A DNA stretch of 64,000 bases from Mucilaginibacter empetricola (GTDB lineage: Bacteria; Bacteroidota; Bacteroidia; Sphingobacteriales; Sphingobacteriaceae): positions 1 through 64,000 of the forward strand of contig NZ_JANUBZ010000004.1 of NCBI RefSeq assembly GCF_024808665.1. Direction: 5' to 3'. Each line of letters begins with the position of its first letter. The stretch's first letter is position 1. The notes below the pieces were generated by a model. That model was not told the origin of the DNA. It did no database searches and saw only the letters and a program-made list of their open reading frames with translations. Below are positions 37,375 through 46,227 of this stretch, in pieces. Made by a program: the position numbers and the translations under genes.

Positions 37375-39318
37375 ATGAGGAAACTTTTACTTATGCACAG
37401 GCTGTATCTTTTTGTACAGTTAATTATTATATATGGTACGGTCACTTTTGTGTGCACATCCTCCTGTTTCGCACAAATCAATCAAATAAAGCATTTCTCT
37501 GCGGATCTTAGCAAAGCAAAACAGGATACCAACCTGGTAAACACCTATTATAATCTTTCCAGGCAATATTGGAATAAAAATGCCGACAGCGCATTGCTAA
37601 TGGCCGATAAATCGCTCGAACTGGCAAAAAAAATTCATTTTGAAAAAGGCATTGCGCTGGGGTATCTTTTAAAAGGAGTAGCCCTGGGGTATAAAGGGAA
37701 CTGGCCCGAAGCGCTGGACTGTCACTTACAATGCCTGCGCATTAGCGAAAAGCTGGGTATGGAGGGATTAACCGGAAACGAATATAATAACATAGCCGGC
37801 ATGTACACTTCTTTAGAAGATTATACAAAGGCACTATATTATAACCGGCAAGCTTATAAAATAGTCCTGAAACAGCATGATCCTACCGGCTTTGCTACCT
37901 ATGCTTTATTGGTAAACATGGGCGAAATATTTAAGTACAAAGGTCAGCCGGATTCTGCCATCGCCTATAACTCCCGCGCGCTGGTTGTAGCAAAAAGAGC
38001 AAAAGATGCCAACAGCATTGCTACTGCATTATATAATATCGGCGAAAACTACGTTACCAAAAAAAACTACACACAAGCAGAGGTTTATTTTTACAAGGCA
38101 CTTGATATTGCCAAAAAAGCCGGAGACGATGAAGACGTTGCTTATTGCCATACCGGCCTGGCGCTTACCTCGTATTATACCGGCAAATACAATTCCAGCA
38201 TGCTGTATGCTGAGAAAGGGCTTGAAGAAAGCAGAAAATCTGGTATTGTTGAACTTATTCAAAAGGCTTATCACGTGCTCTATCTAACTCATCAGCAAAC
38301 GGGTAATTACCAACAGTCGCTTTATTATCGCAACCTTGAAGTTGAATTAACTGATAGTTTGAATACTGCAGCAAAGCAAAAAGCCATCAGAAATATACAG
38401 TCGACCTATGAGCTGGATAAAAAGCAAAGGCAAATTGATTTATTGAATAAAGATAAAATCATCAATCAAAAAGAGCTGGAAAAAATAAAGTTAAAATGGG
38501 ATATTTTAACGGCCGGCACGGTGTCTTTGCTCTTACTCGCCTTTATACTTTTTAGAAACTATAAAGAAAAACAGACGCTTAGCGAGCAATTGATCTTACA
38601 AAATAAAAACATATCAGAACAAAAGGAACGCCTGGAAGAATTGGTACTGGTTAAAGACCGGCTTTTCTCCATAATTGGGCACGACCTGAGAGGCCCCATT
38701 CATGCCATCAATCAAATGTTGGATATGTTAAAAGAAGGGGACTTATCTGAAGAGGAAAGCGACTTTTGGATTGAGAAAACAAGCGATCACCTTACCATGA
38801 CGGCACACCTGGTTGAAAACCTATTATACTGGGCCAAAAGCCAAATGGATGGCATCCATACCAACCCCGTTAACTTTGATGTGCAAAAGGTGATTGAACA
38901 AAATGTAATGCTGATAAAAGCACGGGCAGCCGAAAAGAAAGTAACGGTTACCAGTATGGCCGCAACCGGAGCTGAAATTGTTTATGGCGACGAAACGATG
39001 ATTGATATTGTGATAAGGAATTTGGTGGAGAATGCTGTAAAGTTTTCAAAAGAAGGTGATATAGTTACCATAAGCGCCGAGAAAAAAGAGCTGCTAACCT
39101 TGATAACCGTAAATGATAATGGGAAGGGTATCCCCGAAGAAGCACAGGCAAAGATATTTGACAAACTTTCATCCTATACAACTTATGGCACAGCAAGCGA
39201 AAAAGGAAGTGGCCTTGGTTTGTTATTATGTAAAGAACTGGTAGAAAAAAACAACGGTACTTTATGGTTTCAAAGCAAAACAGATATAGGGAGTTCTTTT
39301 TATTTTACGATACCGTAA
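37375..39318 (+). CDS. TPR sensor histidine kinase
   Basis: This 647-residue kinase has a signal peptide (about 1-32), about six TPR repeats (about 40-320), one membrane segment (about 378-398), a coiled coil, HisKA with IIGHDLRGPIHAINQM (His near 436), and HATPase with NLVENAVKFS, DNGKGIPEE and GSGLGLLL. The sensor region would be periplasmic. No response regulator gene is next to it. Confidence 0.92.
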   Translation: MRKLLLMHRLYLFVQLIIIYGTVTFVCTSSCFAQINQIKHFSADLSKAKQDTNLVNTYYNLSRQYWNKNADSALLMADKSLELAKKIHFEKGIALGYLLKGVALGYKGNWPEALDCHLQCLRISEKLGMEGLTGNEYNNIAGMYTSLEDYTKALYYNRQAYKIVLKQHDPTGFATYALLVNMGEIFKYKGQPDSAIAYNSRALVVAKRAKDANSIATALYNIGENYVTKKNYTQAEVYFYKALDIAKKAGDDEDVAYCHTGLALTSYYTGKYNSSMLYAEKGLEESRKSGIVELIQKAYHVLYLTHQQTGNYQQSLYYRNLEVELTDSLNTAAKQKAIRNIQSTYELDKKQRQIDLLNKDKIINQKELEKIKLKWDILTAGTVSLLLLAFILFRNYKEKQTLSEQLILQNKNISEQKERLEELVLVKDRLFSIIGHDLRGPIHAINQMLDMLKEGDLSEEESDFWIEKTSDHLTMTAHLVENLLYWAKSQMDGIHTNPVNFDVQKVIEQNVMLIKARAAEKKVTVTSMAATGAEIVYGDETMIDIVIRNLVENAVKFSKEGDIVTISAEKKELLTLITVNDNGKGIPEEAQAKIFDKLSSYTTYGTASEKGSGLGLLLCKELVEKNNGTLWFQSKTDIGSSFYFTIP

Positions 39319-39408
39319 TAATAGAATGGGATTGGTGAAAAAAGGATTGTAAAGGTTGAGAAAGAGGATTTGTGGTTTTTAGGGGCAGCGGGGGACTGAG
39401 GTTGGGGA

Positions 39409-39697
39409 TACTTATGACTTTTCGCTTTTTTACTTGCGTTATCTTATCCTAAAGTAAAAAATCAAGAATACCCTTTTCTGGCGCGAGTATGTAGCGCAGG
39501 CCTAAAGCTGGGCGTACTCGTGACTCTTCGCCTTTTTACTTACGCAATTTTGTCCTAAAGTAAAAAGTCACGAGTACGCCGCCTCACGTCTCCAATGCTG
39601 CATATTCGCGCCAGAGGGAGTCTTGTCTTAAAGTGAAAGGTCACGAGTACACCACCTCACGTTTCCGACGCCGCATACTCGCGCCAGAGGGGGAGCT
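39409..39697. repeat. cluster of nested palindromic repeats at the CRISPR trailer
   Basis: The centre is a hairpin at 39511-39580: GGCGTACTCGTGAC (39511-39524) with GTCACGAGTACGCC (39567-39580), and TTTTTACTT (39533-39541) with AAGTAAAAA (39558-39566). It is enclosed by CTGGCGCGAGTATG (39478-39491) and CATATTCGCGCCAG (39601-39614). A degenerate copy is at 39409-39471 and a half-copy at 39626-39694. Remnants are at 34488-34525 and 35900-35960. It looks like an interspersed palindromic family. Confidence 0.7.
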
Positions 39698-40897
39698 TGT
39701 TTGATTTGCTTTCATTCTTTGAACAACTGATATTTGCAACAACCCAGGCGCGGCCGTAGCCGTTTCGAGCATAGTTGTGATTTGCTTTCATTCTTTGAAC
39801 AACTGATATTTGCAACAACTATCGGATCCAATAATGCAAATTCATCTGCGTTGTGATTTGCTTTCATTCTTTGAACAACTGATATTTGCAACAACTGATA
39901 TTTGCAACAACAATAGGTACAGTGACCAAATCGCCGAATGTGTTGTGATTTGCTTTCATTCTTTGAACAACTGATATTTGCAACAACCCTATCACGGAAA
40001 CAAGGTAGCGCCAACGGGTTGTGATTTGCTTTCATTCTTTGAACAACTGATATTTGCAACAACGATGCAAAAATAATCTACCAAGAGGCCATAGTTGTGA
40101 TTTGCTTTCATTCTTTGAACAACTGATATTTGCAACAACATAGGTTGGTCCTGAACATTTTAAATTCATGTTGTGATTTGCTTTCATTCTTTGAACAACT
40201 GATATTTGCAACAACTTCTTAAAGAACTTTCCTAACATATCCATAGTTGTGATTTGCTTTCATTCTTTGAACAACTGATATTTGCAACAACTATCGTCAC
40301 CAGTCGCCAAAGCTTCAATATGTTGTGATTTGCTTTCATTCTTTGAACAACTGATATTTGCAACAACAAGACAGGCGTTACAGCGTAGTACAGATGAGTT
40401 GTGATTTGCTTTCATTCTTTGAACAACTGATATTTGCAACAACAGTTCCATATCGGATCCTCGGGAATTATAAGTTGTGATTTGCTTTCATTCTTTGAAC
40501 AACTGATATTTGCAACAACTTTTACCTTTATCCTCAATGGCACTCATGGGTTGTGATTTGCTTTCATTCTTTGAACAACTGATATTTGCAACAACAAACG
40601 ACATACGGTTCATGATGTTATCTCTGTTGTGATTTGCTTTCATTCTTTGAACAACTGATATTTGCAACAACAAAAATCTTTTGGGTGTATTTGCTAAAGA
40701 GTTGTGATTTGCTTTCATTCTTTGAACAACTGATATTTGCAACAACTGTCGTTGATTTGTATAAGACACCGCCCTGGTTGTGATTTGCTTTCATTCTTTG
40801 AACAACTGATATTTGCAACAACTTAGCGATATGCAGGGATGGATTGGATATGTTGTGATTTGCTTTCATTCTTTGAACAACTGATATTTGCAACAAC
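39698..40897 (+). CRISPR. type II-C CRISPR array, 16 repeats and 15 spacers
   Basis: Repeats are 46 bp, beginning GTTGTGATTTGCTTTC and ending GATATTTGCAACAAC on the plus strand; spacers are 30 bp (two of 29 bp). Repeat starts are 39698 (five degenerate 5' bases), 39774, 39850, 39942, 40018, 40094, 40170, 40246, 40322, 40398, 40474, 40550, 40626, 40701, 40777 and 40852. The third repeat has a 16-bp 3' duplication (39896-39911). The degenerate repeat marks the old end, so new spacers enter near cas2. The tracr anti-repeat at 46146-46162 pairs with the 5' part of the plus-strand repeat, so crRNAs are read from the plus strand, toward cas2, from promoters inside the repeats. Confidence 0.98.
39781..39812 (+). 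promoter_or_regulatory. repeat-embedded crRNA promoter (example in second repeat)
   Basis: Within each 46-bp repeat, TTTG at positions 8-11 is followed after 20 bp by GATATTTG at 32-39. The Bacteroidota consensus is TTTG-N19-21-TAnnTTTG, so only the first T of the -7 box differs. Transcription would start at the repeat end or first spacer base. Given here for the second repeat; all 16 repeats, including the degenerate one, keep both elements. Confidence 0.6.
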
Positions 40898-40931
40898 CTA
40901 CCAGTAGATAAAAGTTTAAATATCAGTTGTT
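40876..40931 (+). repeat. inverted copy of repeat segment in the leader
   Basis: AACAACTGATATTT (40876-40889, in the last repeat) is perfectly complementary to AAATATCAGTTGTT (40918-40931, in the leader), a 14-bp stem with a 28-nt loop. It could fold in a transcript leaving the array or mark the integration end. Confidence 0.6.
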
Positions 40932-40950
40932 TATGTTTAAATTTAGAATT

Positions 40951-40981
40951 AAAAAATCCGGTTGCATATGCTTCCGGATTT
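40951..40981 (-). terminator. terminator of the cas operon
   Basis: AAATCCGG (40954-40961) pairs with CCGGATTT (40974-40981); on the minus strand the stem is followed by a run of T. It lies 7 bp after the cas2 stop and ends cas9-cas1-cas2 transcripts before the array. Confidence 0.82.
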
Positions 40982-40987
40982 GTAATT

Positions 40988-41317
<330 letters not shown>

Positions 41318-41320
41318 TTA

Positions 41321-42355
41321 TCAAAACGGTAACTCTTCATCTTCCTCGCTGTCTGTTTTATAATATTTTTCTTCCTCTTCGGCAGCCAGGTATATAAAAT
41401 CTTCTTTCCCTTTATACGTTATATTGCGTTTGGGAATAAAATCCTTCATTATAGGGTAAGTTATCCTCCGTATCTTGCCTTCATAACACCTGGCTAAAGA
41501 AGAGGTGGTGTTTTGAACGCCAACCATTAAAGGACTTCTGCTCTTCTCAAACTGTACATCAACAGTGGCTATTCCCAATAATTGGGATTTAATTGAATTA
41601 CCTAACTCTAAAAAGTTCTCGCCATTATCAATAATCCTCAAAACAATAAGATCTACATATGGGCGGTAGGGCTCCATAATATCATCTGCCAGGCAATAAG
41701 CGTTATATTTATTACGGTGGTGAATGCCTAATGTTGGTATAAGGCCGGAGCAAACCAGTGCGCGTGCTACAACTGCTCTTAATATGGCATAACCATAATT
41801 CAGTAAATTATTAGGGGGATCGCCCTCTCGGCCACGGAAAAACTTCACTTTTTCGGGAAATACGTTTTTCCAATAGTAAGCAGCGGCCCGTCCTTCGTAA
41901 TTGTCAGGATCGCCGGAGCGTACAGACTTCGCCCAATGCAACATGTTTTCGTGTGCAATACCTCTGTCTGATAGTACCGCTGCCTGATTTAATATTTTGG
42001 CCTGGATAGTTTGTTGCCAAAGTTGCTTTTTTAATGGTTGCGAAGCATCTATCTGATCGCGAAAACGCTCGCTCTGTGTATGATGCCCGTCTATTGGCAG
42101 CATCATGCCGGTTGGGTGATGTGTATTATTACAGGTAATAATTGCAGCGTTATTATATAATAACGCTGCAATACAGCCATGTGTAATGGTAATTTGCTGA
42201 TGATCCAGCACAATAATGCCTATGTCTTCAATAGGGACTGATTTTTTACTTTCCTTTTCGCCCAATACTTTTAAGTGAGGAAGATCAATTACTAACTGAC
42301 TTTCTTTTAAACTGAGATAAGCCGGATTGCTGAAGTGAAGCGTTCGTTTTATCAT
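41321..42355 (-). CDS. cas1: CRISPR-associated integrase Cas1
   Basis: This 344-residue protein has type II Cas1 features: LLNYGYAILRAVVARALVCSGLIPTLGIHH (catalytic His region) and LADDIMEPYRPYVD (catalytic Asp region), with a catalytic Glu expected in the segment EGRAAAYYW. It integrates spacers with Cas2. It is about 40 residues longer than usual through an acidic tail ending DSEEDEELPF. Ten bases separate it from cas9. Confidence 0.95.
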   Translation of the reverse strand: MIKRTLHFSNPAYLSLKESQLVIDLPHLKVLGEKESKKSVPIEDIGIIVLDHQQITITHGCIAALLYNNAAIITCNNTHHPTGMMLPIDGHHTQSERFRDQIDASQPLKKQLWQQTIQAKILNQAAVLSDRGIAHENMLHWAKSVRSGDPDNYEGRAAAYYWKNVFPEKVKFFRGREGDPPNNLLNYGYAILRAVVARALVCSGLIPTLGIHHRNKYNAYCLADDIMEPYRPYVDLIVLRIIDNGENFLELGNSIKSQLLGIATVDVQFEKSRSPLMVGVQNTTSSLARCYEGKIRRITYPIMKDFIPKRNITYKGKEDFIYLAAEEEEKYYKTDSEEDEELPF

Positions 42356-42365
42356 AGTTAAGCAT

Positions 42366-45300
42366 TTAAAAAGATATTTCTCCTAAAATATTAATTTTCA
42401 CTTTGATGGGGTTCATCTTTTCAAAAGCACCCACACTTTTAAATCTATAATACCTTTTACTTTCTTTTGCTTCATTGATTTTTTTTAAGTCACTATTTTT
42501 TGTTTCTAAATGGTGTCTAAACCAGTAATCAGATTCGGAAATAGACCAGGCTAAATACAAAAATTTACTTATGAACTTTTTATTCTTTTCTGAAATGGCG
42601 ATCTCAATTTCTTCTTTTGATAATCCGAGTATAAACATTTCATTTTGTTGAATACTTTGCTGAAATATCCAATTGTCACGAGGTAGCTTTTCTAAAAAAG
42701 ACTCTGTATAGTTCAACTTACTGGTGAGTATGCTATCCCAAATGTTTTTTGAATCTTTTATAACTGCTGGAATATTATTTTTTTTACGTTCAACCGCATG
42801 CCAAAAGGAACAAATGTGTTCTTTCTTTTTTCCGTCGGCATCCAAATAAATGGCTATATGATGATTATTGGCAGGTTTTACGAACCCAATATTTTCCCCT
42901 TGCTCATTTTTTTTAATAGGTTCAACCGCAGACAATCCAGTGGAACAGCGTACAGTTTTTATTGGTATATTTTTAGCATGGTTAAACCAAATCGGATCAT
43001 TCTCAATATTCTTGAATGCTTCTTTGGGATTATTATTATATTGATCTAATCTATCAGAAATTATTTTTTTTATTTTTTCGTCAATTATTTTGTCCGCTTT
43101 TGTGAAATCGGTATTTAACGGATATTTAATAACGTATTCATCAATATAGCAAGTTCCAAATTGTAAAATTATAGCTTGGTCTTTATCTAAAAAAATTGGT
43201 TCTTCTTTTACCGAAGCTATTGCCTTTTTAGTGTCGCCGTTAAACCGGGATAATCTTTCTTCTACTAACGCCTTAATATATGGTTTGAAAATATTTTGTG
43301 GGTTTTCAAAAAGAAACTTCAAAGGTTGCTTCTTTACTATAGTTTTAATTTTTCCATAAACGCTTTCTTCACTTAGCGGTCCTCGCGGTACAAGGACTCC
43401 TGTTTCTTTGTTTTTTCCGGTTGCCTTATGTTTACTAATCGTGCCGATTCTTTTGCCTGGTTTAAATGAAATGAGGATATTATCAACCTTATCCTCAACT
43501 TGTTTCGTGGTAAATGGCTTTTTACTGAAGATGAAGTTTTCTAATAAGTTTTTTTTTCTGTCGTAATCTATTCCTGCATCGTCAACCTCTTTTTTCATTT
43601 CATCGCGAGTTGTACTTGCATTGAGAGTATTTATTCTTTGTACAAAACTTTGCTCTGTACAAGCAATTATTAACGCATCAATGGCATGATGCCGATGGTC
43701 ATCTCTTTTCGACCAATCTTTTATTATTTCCTGTGAGTGAAATTGTCCATTATTGGTTTGCCAGTGTTTTCGTTCAGTTAAGCCTAAATCAGCGTACTTC
43801 TGTAATTGCAAATTCATGGTAACTTCGTTCCATCCCCATACTGTCCGAAGATATTGGGTGATGTTTCCGCTTGTGCTCCAAACATTATTGCAAACTTGCT
43901 CTAAAATATTTTTTGATTTTCTGGTAATATATTGTGTTTCCCTAAGTTGCCGCGCAATAAAATTCTCCCACAGTTTTTTATCAGCTTCGGTTTCTTTCTT
44001 TTTGTTTTTTCGGTCTAAATAATCTTCATGAGAGGCTTTAAGACGCTCCATCTTTGAATACGATAAGATCCCTTGCTTGTACCATTCATCTAATCTTGTT
44101 AAATACTTTTGTAATTCAATATCTCCTTTAGCGCGAATGAAATCGTAAGCGGTTTTATTTTTTTTATCTTCGGCGTTACACTTTCTATGAACTAAAACTT
44201 TGTTTGTTTGTGAATCATCAAACAATAATGATTGTGGTATAATATGATCAACATCGAAGTTATTTCCTGATAAAGCCTCGGATAAACTAAATTGTTCACC
44301 ACAATAAATACATTGATTTTTAATTATTGCTTCTTTAAGCTTTTTGTTTCTTACAGGAAATATAAACTTGTATTTTTCTATATTTCTTCTTTTGGAGGGG
44401 AGTCCCAATTCGATTAAGCGCTTGATTACTTCGTTGTTTATAGTTTCGTTGGCTGAAATATTAAGCATGGTTTCATTTCTTTCATCTTTACTTTGTTTTA
44501 ATTCTCTTGCAAGTTCAATTCGTATTTCATCATCGTTATTGAAACTCCCATATTCTTTAATAATTTCGTTTACTACATTGATTAGTTGATTTAGTATTTT
44601 TTCAACTATTGGTTGTCTTAAGCTGTTTTTCTTCAATAATTCAATATGGCTATCAACTGACCTACCTTGCCGCTCTTCTTTCGTTAAAGAATTGGAATGG
44701 TTGTATCCAGCTATTGAACACGCAGAACTATAAACTAAACCATGCATTAGATGTGGTAAGATTTTGCGCATCGCTTTTGCCGACTTATTCCCAAAGGCGG
44801 ATTTTGTAAAGTCAAGTTTAATTAAGTGATCTGCAATCTCACTGGATAAATTGAATTTTGATTTTAAAGCATTTCTGCATTCTTCAGCATCAGATATTGA
44901 ATAAATGGTATGCCATAATTGATAGAAAGGTTGTTGCTCAAAATTCGCTGATATTTGCTCTGCCTGTTTTACCTCACCTGATTTAAAGTCAATTACTTCG
45001 GTTGCTTCAATATTTAAATCAAATTGTAATAGATGCTCGGTATGCTGTAGATGTTTTAAAATAGCAACTTTGGTGAGATTTCCTTGTAAACCTTTGCTTA
45101 TTTGTTTATTAGTGTACCAACCATCATTTTTATTTAATTCAAGTATTCCTAATAATTCAGCTTGGCTTAGCCTTTCGTTATTATCTAAATAATCAAATAT
45201 TTGTTTTTTCTTTTCATTATCAATTATCAATATTTCACCTTTGCGATTTTTGATTGAAATAGAATTAATCGTTTCCCATATTTTGCATATTTGAAATAAA

Positions 45301-46097
45301 GGGGAGCTTTTAGGTGCAACTTTAGGGCCGGTGAGTATTCCGATTCCTTTTTCATTTTTTCTTATTTTACCTTCCAATTCGCAAATTGATACCAGGGCTT
45401 TCTGCGACTTTAACTTTCTCTGATAGTAAATTATTTCATTTCTTAATTTGGCGACAATGATATCTGTTAAAACAGGATGATACTTTTTCTGTTCTCGACA
45501 AATTGCCTCGAATTCTTCAACATAGGCTTCCCGGGGAAAGACCTGTTGTTTAATTCGATAATTTGGTGTTTCTTTTAACTTTTCATAAAAATGTTGCCCG
45601 ATTGTTTGGCCTGCATTTTTGATTAGCTGATGCCGGCTTTTTACTTCAGCTACGTAATCGGTGTCTTTTTTTTCAAGTGTTGAATCACTGCGGCTACTTT
45701 TATAACCTCGTCTTTGATTTAAATGATATAAAACTCGTCCGAGTTCCCTTAATTCAATTTTCTCTTTTATTGCTTTTTCTCTTAATTCATACAATTGAAT
45801 CGATGATAGTTTAATTAACGATTCAATGGGAAACATATCATGTTGCTCTAATAACTGTTTTAGGTTTTTTTTGCGTAACTGATAGCGGTCATATCCTTTA
45901 CGTTGAGAACGTTTTTCAGTTCTATTCCTGTTTTTAGAAATAGCATTGCCTTTACTAAATTCATCATTATCGGTTGAACTTAAGGGAATTATACGGCTAC
46001 CCAGCCCTAAAATTTCTTTATGCCCATTATCGTCTTTAGATATTAATGCCCACCCAATAGAAGTAACTCCTAAATCTAAGCCTAATGTTTTATTCAT
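42366..46097 (-). CDS. cas9: type II-C CRISPR nuclease Cas9
   Basis: This 1243-residue nuclease has all active parts: RuvC-I LGLDLGVTSIGWAL (Asp8), Arg-rich bridge helix (about 57-85; NRTEKRSQRKGYDRYQLRKK region), RuvC-II IRIELAREL (Glu near 527), HNH with Zn-type CIYCGEQF and HRKCN around FDVDHIIPQSL (His near 618), and RuvC-III HHAIDALII (His near 803, Asp near 806). No csn2 or cas4 is present, so this is subtype II-C. It is within the usual size for this subtype. The tracrRNA gene is divergent from its start. Confidence 0.98.
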   Translation of the reverse strand: MNKTLGLDLGVTSIGWALISKDDNGHKEILGLGSRIIPLSSTDNDEFSKGNAISKNRNRTEKRSQRKGYDRYQLRKKNLKQLLEQHDMFPIESLIKLSSIQLYELREKAIKEKIELRELGRVLYHLNQRRGYKSSRSDSTLEKKDTDYVAEVKSRHQLIKNAGQTIGQHFYEKLKETPNYRIKQQVFPREAYVEEFEAICREQKKYHPVLTDIIVAKLRNEIIYYQRKLKSQKALVSICELEGKIRKNEKGIGILTGPKVAPKSSPLFQICKIWETINSISIKNRKGEILIIDNEKKKQIFDYLDNNERLSQAELLGILELNKNDGWYTNKQISKGLQGNLTKVAILKHLQHTEHLLQFDLNIEATEVIDFKSGEVKQAEQISANFEQQPFYQLWHTIYSISDAEECRNALKSKFNLSSEIADHLIKLDFTKSAFGNKSAKAMRKILPHLMHGLVYSSACSIAGYNHSNSLTKEERQGRSVDSHIELLKKNSLRQPIVEKILNQLINVVNEIIKEYGSFNNDDEIRIELARELKQSKDERNETMLNISANETINNEVIKRLIELGLPSKRRNIEKYKFIFPVRNKKLKEAIIKNQCIYCGEQFSLSEALSGNNFDVDHIIPQSLLFDDSQTNKVLVHRKCNAEDKKNKTAYDFIRAKGDIELQKYLTRLDEWYKQGILSYSKMERLKASHEDYLDRKNKKKETEADKKLWENFIARQLRETQYITRKSKNILEQVCNNVWSTSGNITQYLRTVWGWNEVTMNLQLQKYADLGLTERKHWQTNNGQFHSQEIIKDWSKRDDHRHHAIDALIIACTEQSFVQRINTLNASTTRDEMKKEVDDAGIDYDRKKNLLENFIFSKKPFTTKQVEDKVDNILISFKPGKRIGTISKHKATGKNKETGVLVPRGPLSEESVYGKIKTIVKKQPLKFLFENPQNIFKPYIKALVEERLSRFNGDTKKAIASVKEEPIFLDKDQAIILQFGTCYIDEYVIKYPLNTDFTKADKIIDEKIKKIISDRLDQYNNNPKEAFKNIENDPIWFNHAKNIPIKTVRCSTGLSAVEPIKKNEQGENIGFVKPANNHHIAIYLDADGKKKEHICSFWHAVERKKNNIPAVIKDSKNIWDSILTSKLNYTESFLEKLPRDNWIFQQSIQQNEMFILGLSKEEIEIAISEKNKKFISKFLYLAWSISESDYWFRHHLETKNSDLKKINEAKESKRYYRFKSVGAFEKMNPIKVKINILGEISF

Positions 46098-46142: not shown

Positions 46143-46227
46143 TACAATGAAGCAAATCACAATAAGGATTTTTCCGTTGTGAAAACATTTAAGTAGTCCT
46201 CGTCTTACAATACGGGGCATTTTTTTT
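46143..46227 (+). ncRNA. tracrRNA
   Basis: About 85 nt. The anti-repeat AATGAAGCAAATCACAA (46146-46162) is complementary to the first 19 nt or so of the plus-strand CRISPR repeat with one bulged base. It is followed by AATAAGGATTTTTCCGTTGTG, shown here in parts: the nexus stem AGGA/TCC, and GTTGTGAAAAC as in other tracrRNAs. CCTCGT (46198-46203) pairs with ACGGGG (46212-46217), then eight T form the terminator. It is divergent from cas9. Confidence 0.92.
46198..46227 (+). terminator. tracrRNA terminator
   Basis: CCTCGT/ACGGGG stem (one G-U), 8-nt loop, then CATTTTTTTT. It defines the tracrRNA 3' end. Confidence 0.85.

Follow-up and report, generated by a model that had tools for sequence, protein, structure and literature searches.

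The window analysed here, a stretch of 64,000 nucleotides from Mucilaginibacter empetricola (contig NZ_JANUBZ010000004.1), contains a type II-C CRISPR-Cas locus comprising cas9, cas1, cas2, a tracrRNA with an anti-repeat, and an array whose crRNA strand runs toward cas2 and the leader. The features of the locus are as follows.

39698..40897, + strand: CRISPR array, 16 repeats of 46 nt and 15 spacers; the crRNA strand is +
39698, 39774, 39850, 39942, 40018, 40094, 40170, 40246, 40322, 40398, 40474, 40550, 40626, 40701, 40777, 40852: repeat starts of the array
39698..39743, + strand: first, leader-distal repeat, with mismatches only at positions 1, 2 and 4 and with both promoter-like elements
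39705..39708, + strand: TTTG, -33-like element of the first repeat (repeat positions 8-11; identical place in 16/16 repeats)
39729..39736, + strand: GATATTTG, -7-like element of the first repeat (positions 32-39; identical place in 16/16 repeats)
39896..39911, + strand: duplicated 3'-terminal 16 nt of the repeat (TGATATTTGCAACAAC), following the third repeat
40898..40987, strand not assigned: inferred leader of 90 bp, between the 3' end of the array and cas2
40918..40931, - strand: inverted leader copy of repeat positions 25-38 (AACAACTGATATTT), a candidate half-site for spacer integration
40954..40981, - strand: hairpin and T run, read by eye, likely the terminator of the cas operon
40988..41317, - strand: cas2, assigned by position and size
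41321..42355, - strand: cas1, its translation matching inside the annotated cas1 genes of two other loci (L216, L223)
42366..46097, - strand: cas9, an open frame of 1243 aa
46108..46136, + strand: tracrRNA promoter TTTG-N17-TAAGTTTG, with all consensus letters at spacing 17, serving as a local positive control
~46146..46163, + strand: tracrRNA anti-repeat, pairing with repeat positions 2-19 and lying beyond the cas9 start

The Cas9 of the window shared 39.6% identity over its full length with the annotated Cas9 of Persicobacter. Family evidence for cas1 consisted of one PF01867 match in genome G000, its place not listed. On the - strand, cas1 was the sole ORF of at least 80 aa between cas2 and cas9, and there was no fourth cas gene. 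Downstream of the tracrRNA anti-repeat, a hairpin followed by a T run was recognised by eye. The third unit has a start-to-start spacing of 92 instead of 76 and holds two GATATTTG boxes because the repeat 3' end is duplicated there; apart from the duplication, its spacer is 30 nt. The region upstream of the array (39387-39691) contains diverged direct repeats of 69-85 nt, inverted parts of which, judged by eye, could form large hairpins shielding the array from outside transcription.

The crRNA strand was assigned as + because the tracrRNA anti-repeat (~46146-46163) stands on the + strand. On this strand TTTG-N20-GATATTTG was found in 16/16 repeats, confirming the observation of the initial annotation, which had been made from the sequence alone and had placed this motif in every repeat, facing the same way as the crRNA. 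Against TTTG-N19-21-TAnnTTTG the repeat scored 9/10 letters on the crRNA strand and 6/10 on the opposite strand, the sole miss being at -12, with G for T. The -33-like element is a TTTG lying N20 from the box, which fits TTTG/TTG with 17-21 bases, and the -7-like box GATATTTG has five of the six letters of TAnnTTTG. If the box is placed at -12 to -5, as in PMC9723704, transcription would start at repeat position 44 (39741 in the first repeat), 3 nt before the spacer. Taken alone, the motif in the window is weak and barely beyond chance, because 4% of 300 dinucleotide shuffles of the repeat scored as high (p=0.04); the 16 repeats are copies and therefore constitute one observation rather than sixteen. 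The first repeat had been described as decayed in its five 5' bases with both elements retained; both elements are indeed kept, but the decay is at positions 1, 2 and 4, with 43/46 bases identical.

A check proposed in the initial annotation was the alignment of II-C repeats from other Bacteroidota. Cas9 relatives were sought in 395 Bacteroidota genomes, of which 52, including the window's own, had a match, and five named contigs were added, giving 58 loci with the window; nine were without an array of three or more copies, and the remaining 49 repeats formed 26 clusters. Ten of the 49 repeats had an ambiguous anti-repeat match and were oriented by likeness to the tracr-pairing half, which includes the TTTG; the order of the cas genes was consistent with the strand finally assigned, the exceptions being L063, a remnant, and L074, which is without cas1. 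A Cas9 tree was built from 50 rows, leaving out L074 as well as L090 and L094, in which Cas9 was too short. For the shuffle test, the tracr-pairing bases 1-16 were held and bases 17-end were shuffled 1000 times. In the 26 clusters TAnnTTTG was enriched on the crRNA strand (z 6.85, 0/1000 shuffles), and this enrichment stayed when the box was scored beside an exact TTG at 17-21 (z 5.51), both z scores being upper bounds that overstate the signal because clusters share ancestry. The sigma70 box TATAAT was not enriched in the same test (z -0.27). The best spacing from TTG to the -7 box was N19; N12 formed a second peak, which arises from the presence of two TTGs in the repeat at a distance of seven bases. 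Eight of nine letters were reached by 18/26 clusters on the crRNA strand vs 3/26 on the other strand. A control set of non-II-C arrays, which were short (37 arrays in 18 clusters, from 40 Cas1 loci), was not clean under TTTG-N19-21 (z 1.12, 0/1000 shuffles) and gave no signal beyond shuffles under TTG-N17-23 (z 0.08).

The box occupied two places in the repeats. In the first, it lies near positions 23-27 with TTG at 2-4, for example in L087 (TATCTTTG). In the second, it lies at 31-32 with TTTG or TTG at 8-11, as in the window, L044, L046, L089 and the 36-nt repeats ending in TACATT, TAGATT or GATATT; the repeat of L046 is a perfect TTTG-N19-TAAGTTTG. Positions 21-28 of L077, L083 and L093 read TAGATTTG, TAATTTTG and TAGTTTTG, with a short TTG spacing, and these three repeats differ mutually, as judged by eye, only at the two free box letters and base 13. 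Two other approaches were set aside. A promoter matrix trained by expectation-maximisation on upstream regions was abandoned after it had drifted to AT runs, and the first bases of spacers, considered as completing the box in the 36-nt class, showed only a weak AT bias (11/12 arrays), which was not used because long-repeat arrays show the bias too (18/24). Within the genus of the window, L063 (genome G363) carries five repeats one letter from those of the window beside a Cas9 remnant with an internal stop; no cas1 was found at this locus.

Repeats from outside the phylum were obtained from plasmids. Among 53 plasmid records with a Cas9 match, 14 were examined, yielding seven non-Bacteroidota repeats, one Bacteroidota repeat (L221, kept outside the counts) and six without a repeat. 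The seven II-C repeats derive from Pseudomonadota, Bdellovibrionota, Bacillota and Fusobacteriota, the repeats of Neisseria and Campylobacter lying outside the set, and they end in TATAAT (2), TACAAT (2), TAGACT, TATGCT and TAGGTT. Over bases 17-end they scored z 2.40 for TATAAT and z 0.29 for TAnnTTTG, the reverse of ten Bacteroidota clusters of 36-nt repeats over the same bases. TTG at 9-11 was present in 1/7 of these repeats vs 23/26 Bacteroidota clusters (Fisher p 0.0005). When only the last six bases were compared, the two codes were not separated, TATAAT and TAnnTT both being enriched in both sets, because these motifs share letters. L058, L059 and L071, which lie on separate Cas9 branches (deep forks being weakly supported), have repeats ending in TACATT, a single-letter difference from TACAAT at -8, where the two sigma codes differ from each other. 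With seven non-Bacteroidota repeats as its basis, this comparison is the best support for the idea of the initial annotation that II-C repeats of Bacteroidota carry a promoter written in the sigma code of the phylum.

The repeat family of the window was then considered with regard to its G at -12. Within the family, the sequence GTTGTGRWTTGCTTTC was present in 69/399 genomes. The family set comprised 16 distinct repeats, with L213 (short consensus) and loci of fewer than two copies left out, except for the single-copy L166. GATATTT at positions 32-38 was conserved in these 16 repeats, and positions 23-31 and 39-42 were variable; A33, A35, T36 and T37 were invariant, A35 being a free letter of the box, and G at -12 was found in 15/16. 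The best tracr box had T at -12 in 13/14 family loci, a count biased by the choice of these boxes by consensus. Before genes in the fetched Bacteroidota loci, TTG-N18-20-TAnnTTTG was seen 18 times with 3.1 expected (5.7x), and GAnnTTTG after TTG three times with 1.6 expected, which is not clearly an enrichment. In 464 kb of the window's own genome GAnnTTTG after TTG was seen three times (0.7 expected), a count matched by the highest of 30 shuffles; the sample is too small to settle the matter, because the consensus box itself gave five with 2.4 expected. These counts suggest that G at -12 is at best tolerated. Sense/antisense ratios of box variants, which were also calculated, gave no information, a likely cause being that regions are shared by divergent promoters.

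The leader of the window contains, at its positions 21-34 (40918-40931), an inverted copy of repeat positions 25-38. The pairing register was constant over 15 loci of the family, with 70-76% Watson-Crick pairs at register sum 59 and 20-41% at 15 other registers, and leader swaps paired as well in 10/2000 cases. The pair at position 28 was A-T in eight loci and T-A in five. When leaders were searched for inverted repeats, 17/72 loci reached p<=0.01, and we claim the mirror for the family of the window only, because the register varies outside it. Poly(A) and poly(T) are the leader motifs described in the accessible text of PMC8092290, which contains no mirror of the repeat 3' half. The leader copy may represent a half-site for spacer integration that overlaps the -7 box; since this copy mirrors the block ACTGATATTT, the conservation of the block may be owed to integration.

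This offers the strongest alternative to a promoter, namely that ACTGATATTT is a recognition half-site for spacer integration, bound by Cas1-Cas2 or a helper protein and paired with the inverted copy that lies 21-34 bp inside the leader, the resemblance of the block to a -7 box being coincidental within the family and the actual promoters unrecognised. We regard this as a real possibility, though one with distinctly less than an even chance. The fixed register of the pairing over the 15 loci counts in favour of such a half-site, and the mirror explains the conservation of GATATTT without a promoter. It also accounts for the conserved G at -12, since the leader copy shares G32, as the matching C, in 14/15 loci. 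As a promoter the leader copy is poor, reaching at best 4/6 letters, with a correctly spaced TTG in 1/15. However, the leader copy kept T36 in 9/15 and T38 in 8/15 loci, and the repeat conserved both letters somewhat beyond this (Fisher p 0.017 and 0.035, uncorrected over 17 columns). In L087, a single locus, the box (24-31) and the mirrored part (34-43) lie apart, which leaves the box of this locus unaccounted for by the mirror, and integration alone would leave the sigma70 pattern of other phyla unexplained. The idea of a Bacteroidota sigma code in II-C repeats is supported in part, by the direction, by the motif searches that found no external promoter, by the phylum-wide -7 signal with its spaced TTG and by the reverse pattern in the seven repeats of other phyla, but weakened in the window by the off-consensus -12 letter and by the overlap of the box with the leader-mirrored motif. 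As judged from these sequence comparisons, support for a promoter in the repeat is good at the level of the phylum and moderate for the array of the window.

The crRNA strand pointed toward the cas genes in 54/56 loci (49 Bacteroidota and 7 other) and was opposite to cas9, with the array downstream, in 52/56; in L075 and L076 it faces cas1, the array being located between that gene and cas9. Because the decayed repeat sits at the far end, new spacers are probably added at the 3' end in the direction of transcription. In the leaders of L078, L216 and L226, the crRNA strand meets hairpins and T runs right after the last repeat (read by eye), terminator-like features that would be expected of transcription running into the leader.

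A single promoter upstream of the old end of the array, or read-through from the histidine-kinase-like gene located there (37375-39318), which points the same way, could instead yield a long pre-crRNA that is cut later. We consider this improbable, as a motif search of the 400 bases from 39319 to 39720 found no promoter-like match of 8/9 letters. A motif search was also made in 38 of the 49 arrays and in 31 tracr regions, chosen for sufficient sequence and a good match to the anti-repeat; 8/9 letters were reached in 4/38 of the 120-nt 5' flanks of arrays vs 6/38 of their reverse strands and 18/31 of the 75-nt stretches upstream of tracr. Transcription from the leader at the cas2 side, although the usual rule in most other CRISPR types, is very improbable indeed, because the crRNA strand points at the cas and leader side and a leader promoter could not make these crRNAs: the anti-repeat makes the + strand the functional one, such a promoter would yield antisense RNA, the motif search found no promoter-like match facing the array from the leader of the window, and eight array reads of Flavobacterium columnare run toward the leader (PMC8092290).

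From the observed anatomy, direction, phylum-wide enrichment and leader mirror, we propose that each repeat of the window acts as a weak promoter driving + strand transcription, in a stretch that would also serve integration, a reading to which we give somewhat better than even chances. Transcription of the array would proceed along the + strand, away from the old end and in the direction of the leader and cas2, each repeat being a weak promoter for the main sigma factor of the host, with TTTG at 8-11 as the -33 element and GATATTTG at 32-39 as the -7 box. Transcription would begin at about position 44, three bases ahead of each spacer, and each transcript would consist of one spacer and the next repeat, whose 5' half would pair with the tracrRNA. 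Each repeat newly copied at the leader end would come with a promoter of its own. The stretch 28-38, mirrored in the leader, probably serves spacer integration too, and this may keep the sub-optimal G at -12.

More tentatively, and with odds that we put well short of even, the 3' half of II-C repeats could be a dual-code element, a promoter in the sigma code of the host (a -10 box outside Bacteroidota, TAnnTTTG inside) that in the family of the window overlaps the leader-mirrored integration half-site, which would hold the G at -12 and trade promoter strength for spacer uptake. Under such a dual code, arrays would have to be re-coded on crossing the Bacteroidota border, because the promoter would be in the code of the host. 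If repeats do carry promoters, the repeat would set crRNA expression in Bacteroidota Cas9 systems and each spacer would be its own gene; an array moved to a host with an ordinary sigma70 would fall silent, a barrier to transfer. For learning how Cas1-Cas2 locates the junction in such systems, the leader mirror is a concrete target.

First repeats differed from the consensus in 22/49 arrays (11/49 begin at a contig edge), and in 16 of these 22 the differences were confined to bases 1-19. The -33 element was lost in at least five first repeats of other species (L044, L054, L060, L068, L072), and a promoter in the repeat must therefore invoke a lower importance of the -33 element. Extra mutations have been found in the first repeat of II-C arrays and interpreted as blocking a useless crRNA, and it was suggested that this extra repeat must stay a promoter (PMC12080349); the window fits this picture, with its 5' bases mutated and its promoter-like elements kept. 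In 5/149 genomes of the genus of the window, a perfect hairpin of 23-24 bp with a GAA loop lies directly upstream of a repeat and joins it to an inverted copy of its tracr-pairing half (L249, L250, L251, L253, also L174/L209, L178/L210 and L187; L252, with compensating changes in the stem). This hairpin could mask the first repeat from the tracrRNA, by analogy with the II-A leader hairpin, a type of hairpin described as not identified in II-C in the available text of PMC12080349.

Promoters in II-C repeats are already known, having been established in Campylobacter jejuni (PMC3656092) and taken as general (PMC13187072), and they have been proposed for Bacteroidota (PMC8092290, PMC10309648). 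The window resembles the II-C systems of C. jejuni and Neisseria meningitidis in its cas9-cas1-cas2 order, in spacers entering at the last repeat and in a promoter-like element in the 3' part of each repeat (PMC3656092, PMC12080349). In C. jejuni the repeat contains a -10 box, and differential RNA-seq has shown that transcription starts within the spacers, whereas the window has a -33/-7-like pair of the Bacteroidota kind and a predicted start 3 nt before the spacer. With the primary sigma promoter of Bacteroidota (TTTG at -33, TAnnTTTG at -7; PMC7366714, PMC9723704) the repeat shares TTTG, the spacing and five of six -7 letters, but has G instead of T at -12. Complementarity between repeat and leader recalls the leader-repeat hairpins that act against extraneous crRNA in II-A and VI-B systems (PMC13187072); there the leader pairs with the first transcribed repeat, whereas in the window it pairs with the last repeat, downstream, through the 3' half. 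In Riemerella anatipestifer, a promoter-prediction tool was used on leaders, and the accessible text reports no promoter in the repeats (PMC5006608). Among the open-licence papers found, as far as their accessible text goes, none named a -7 box in Bacteroidota II-C repeats, and TAnnTTTG occurred together with CRISPR only in PMC10309648, where it is used for cas9. Close precedents within the phylum are the II-C systems of F. columnare, for which a TTG was proposed 33 bp upstream of each spacer (PMC8092290), and F. psychrophilum, with the same TTG motif and array transcription (PMC10309648); they share with the window the phylum, the direction and the -33 TTG in the repeat. For the repeat, the accessible text of that proposal names only the TTG, whereas the -7 box, found here at N19-20, its phylum-wide pattern and the leader mirror are new.
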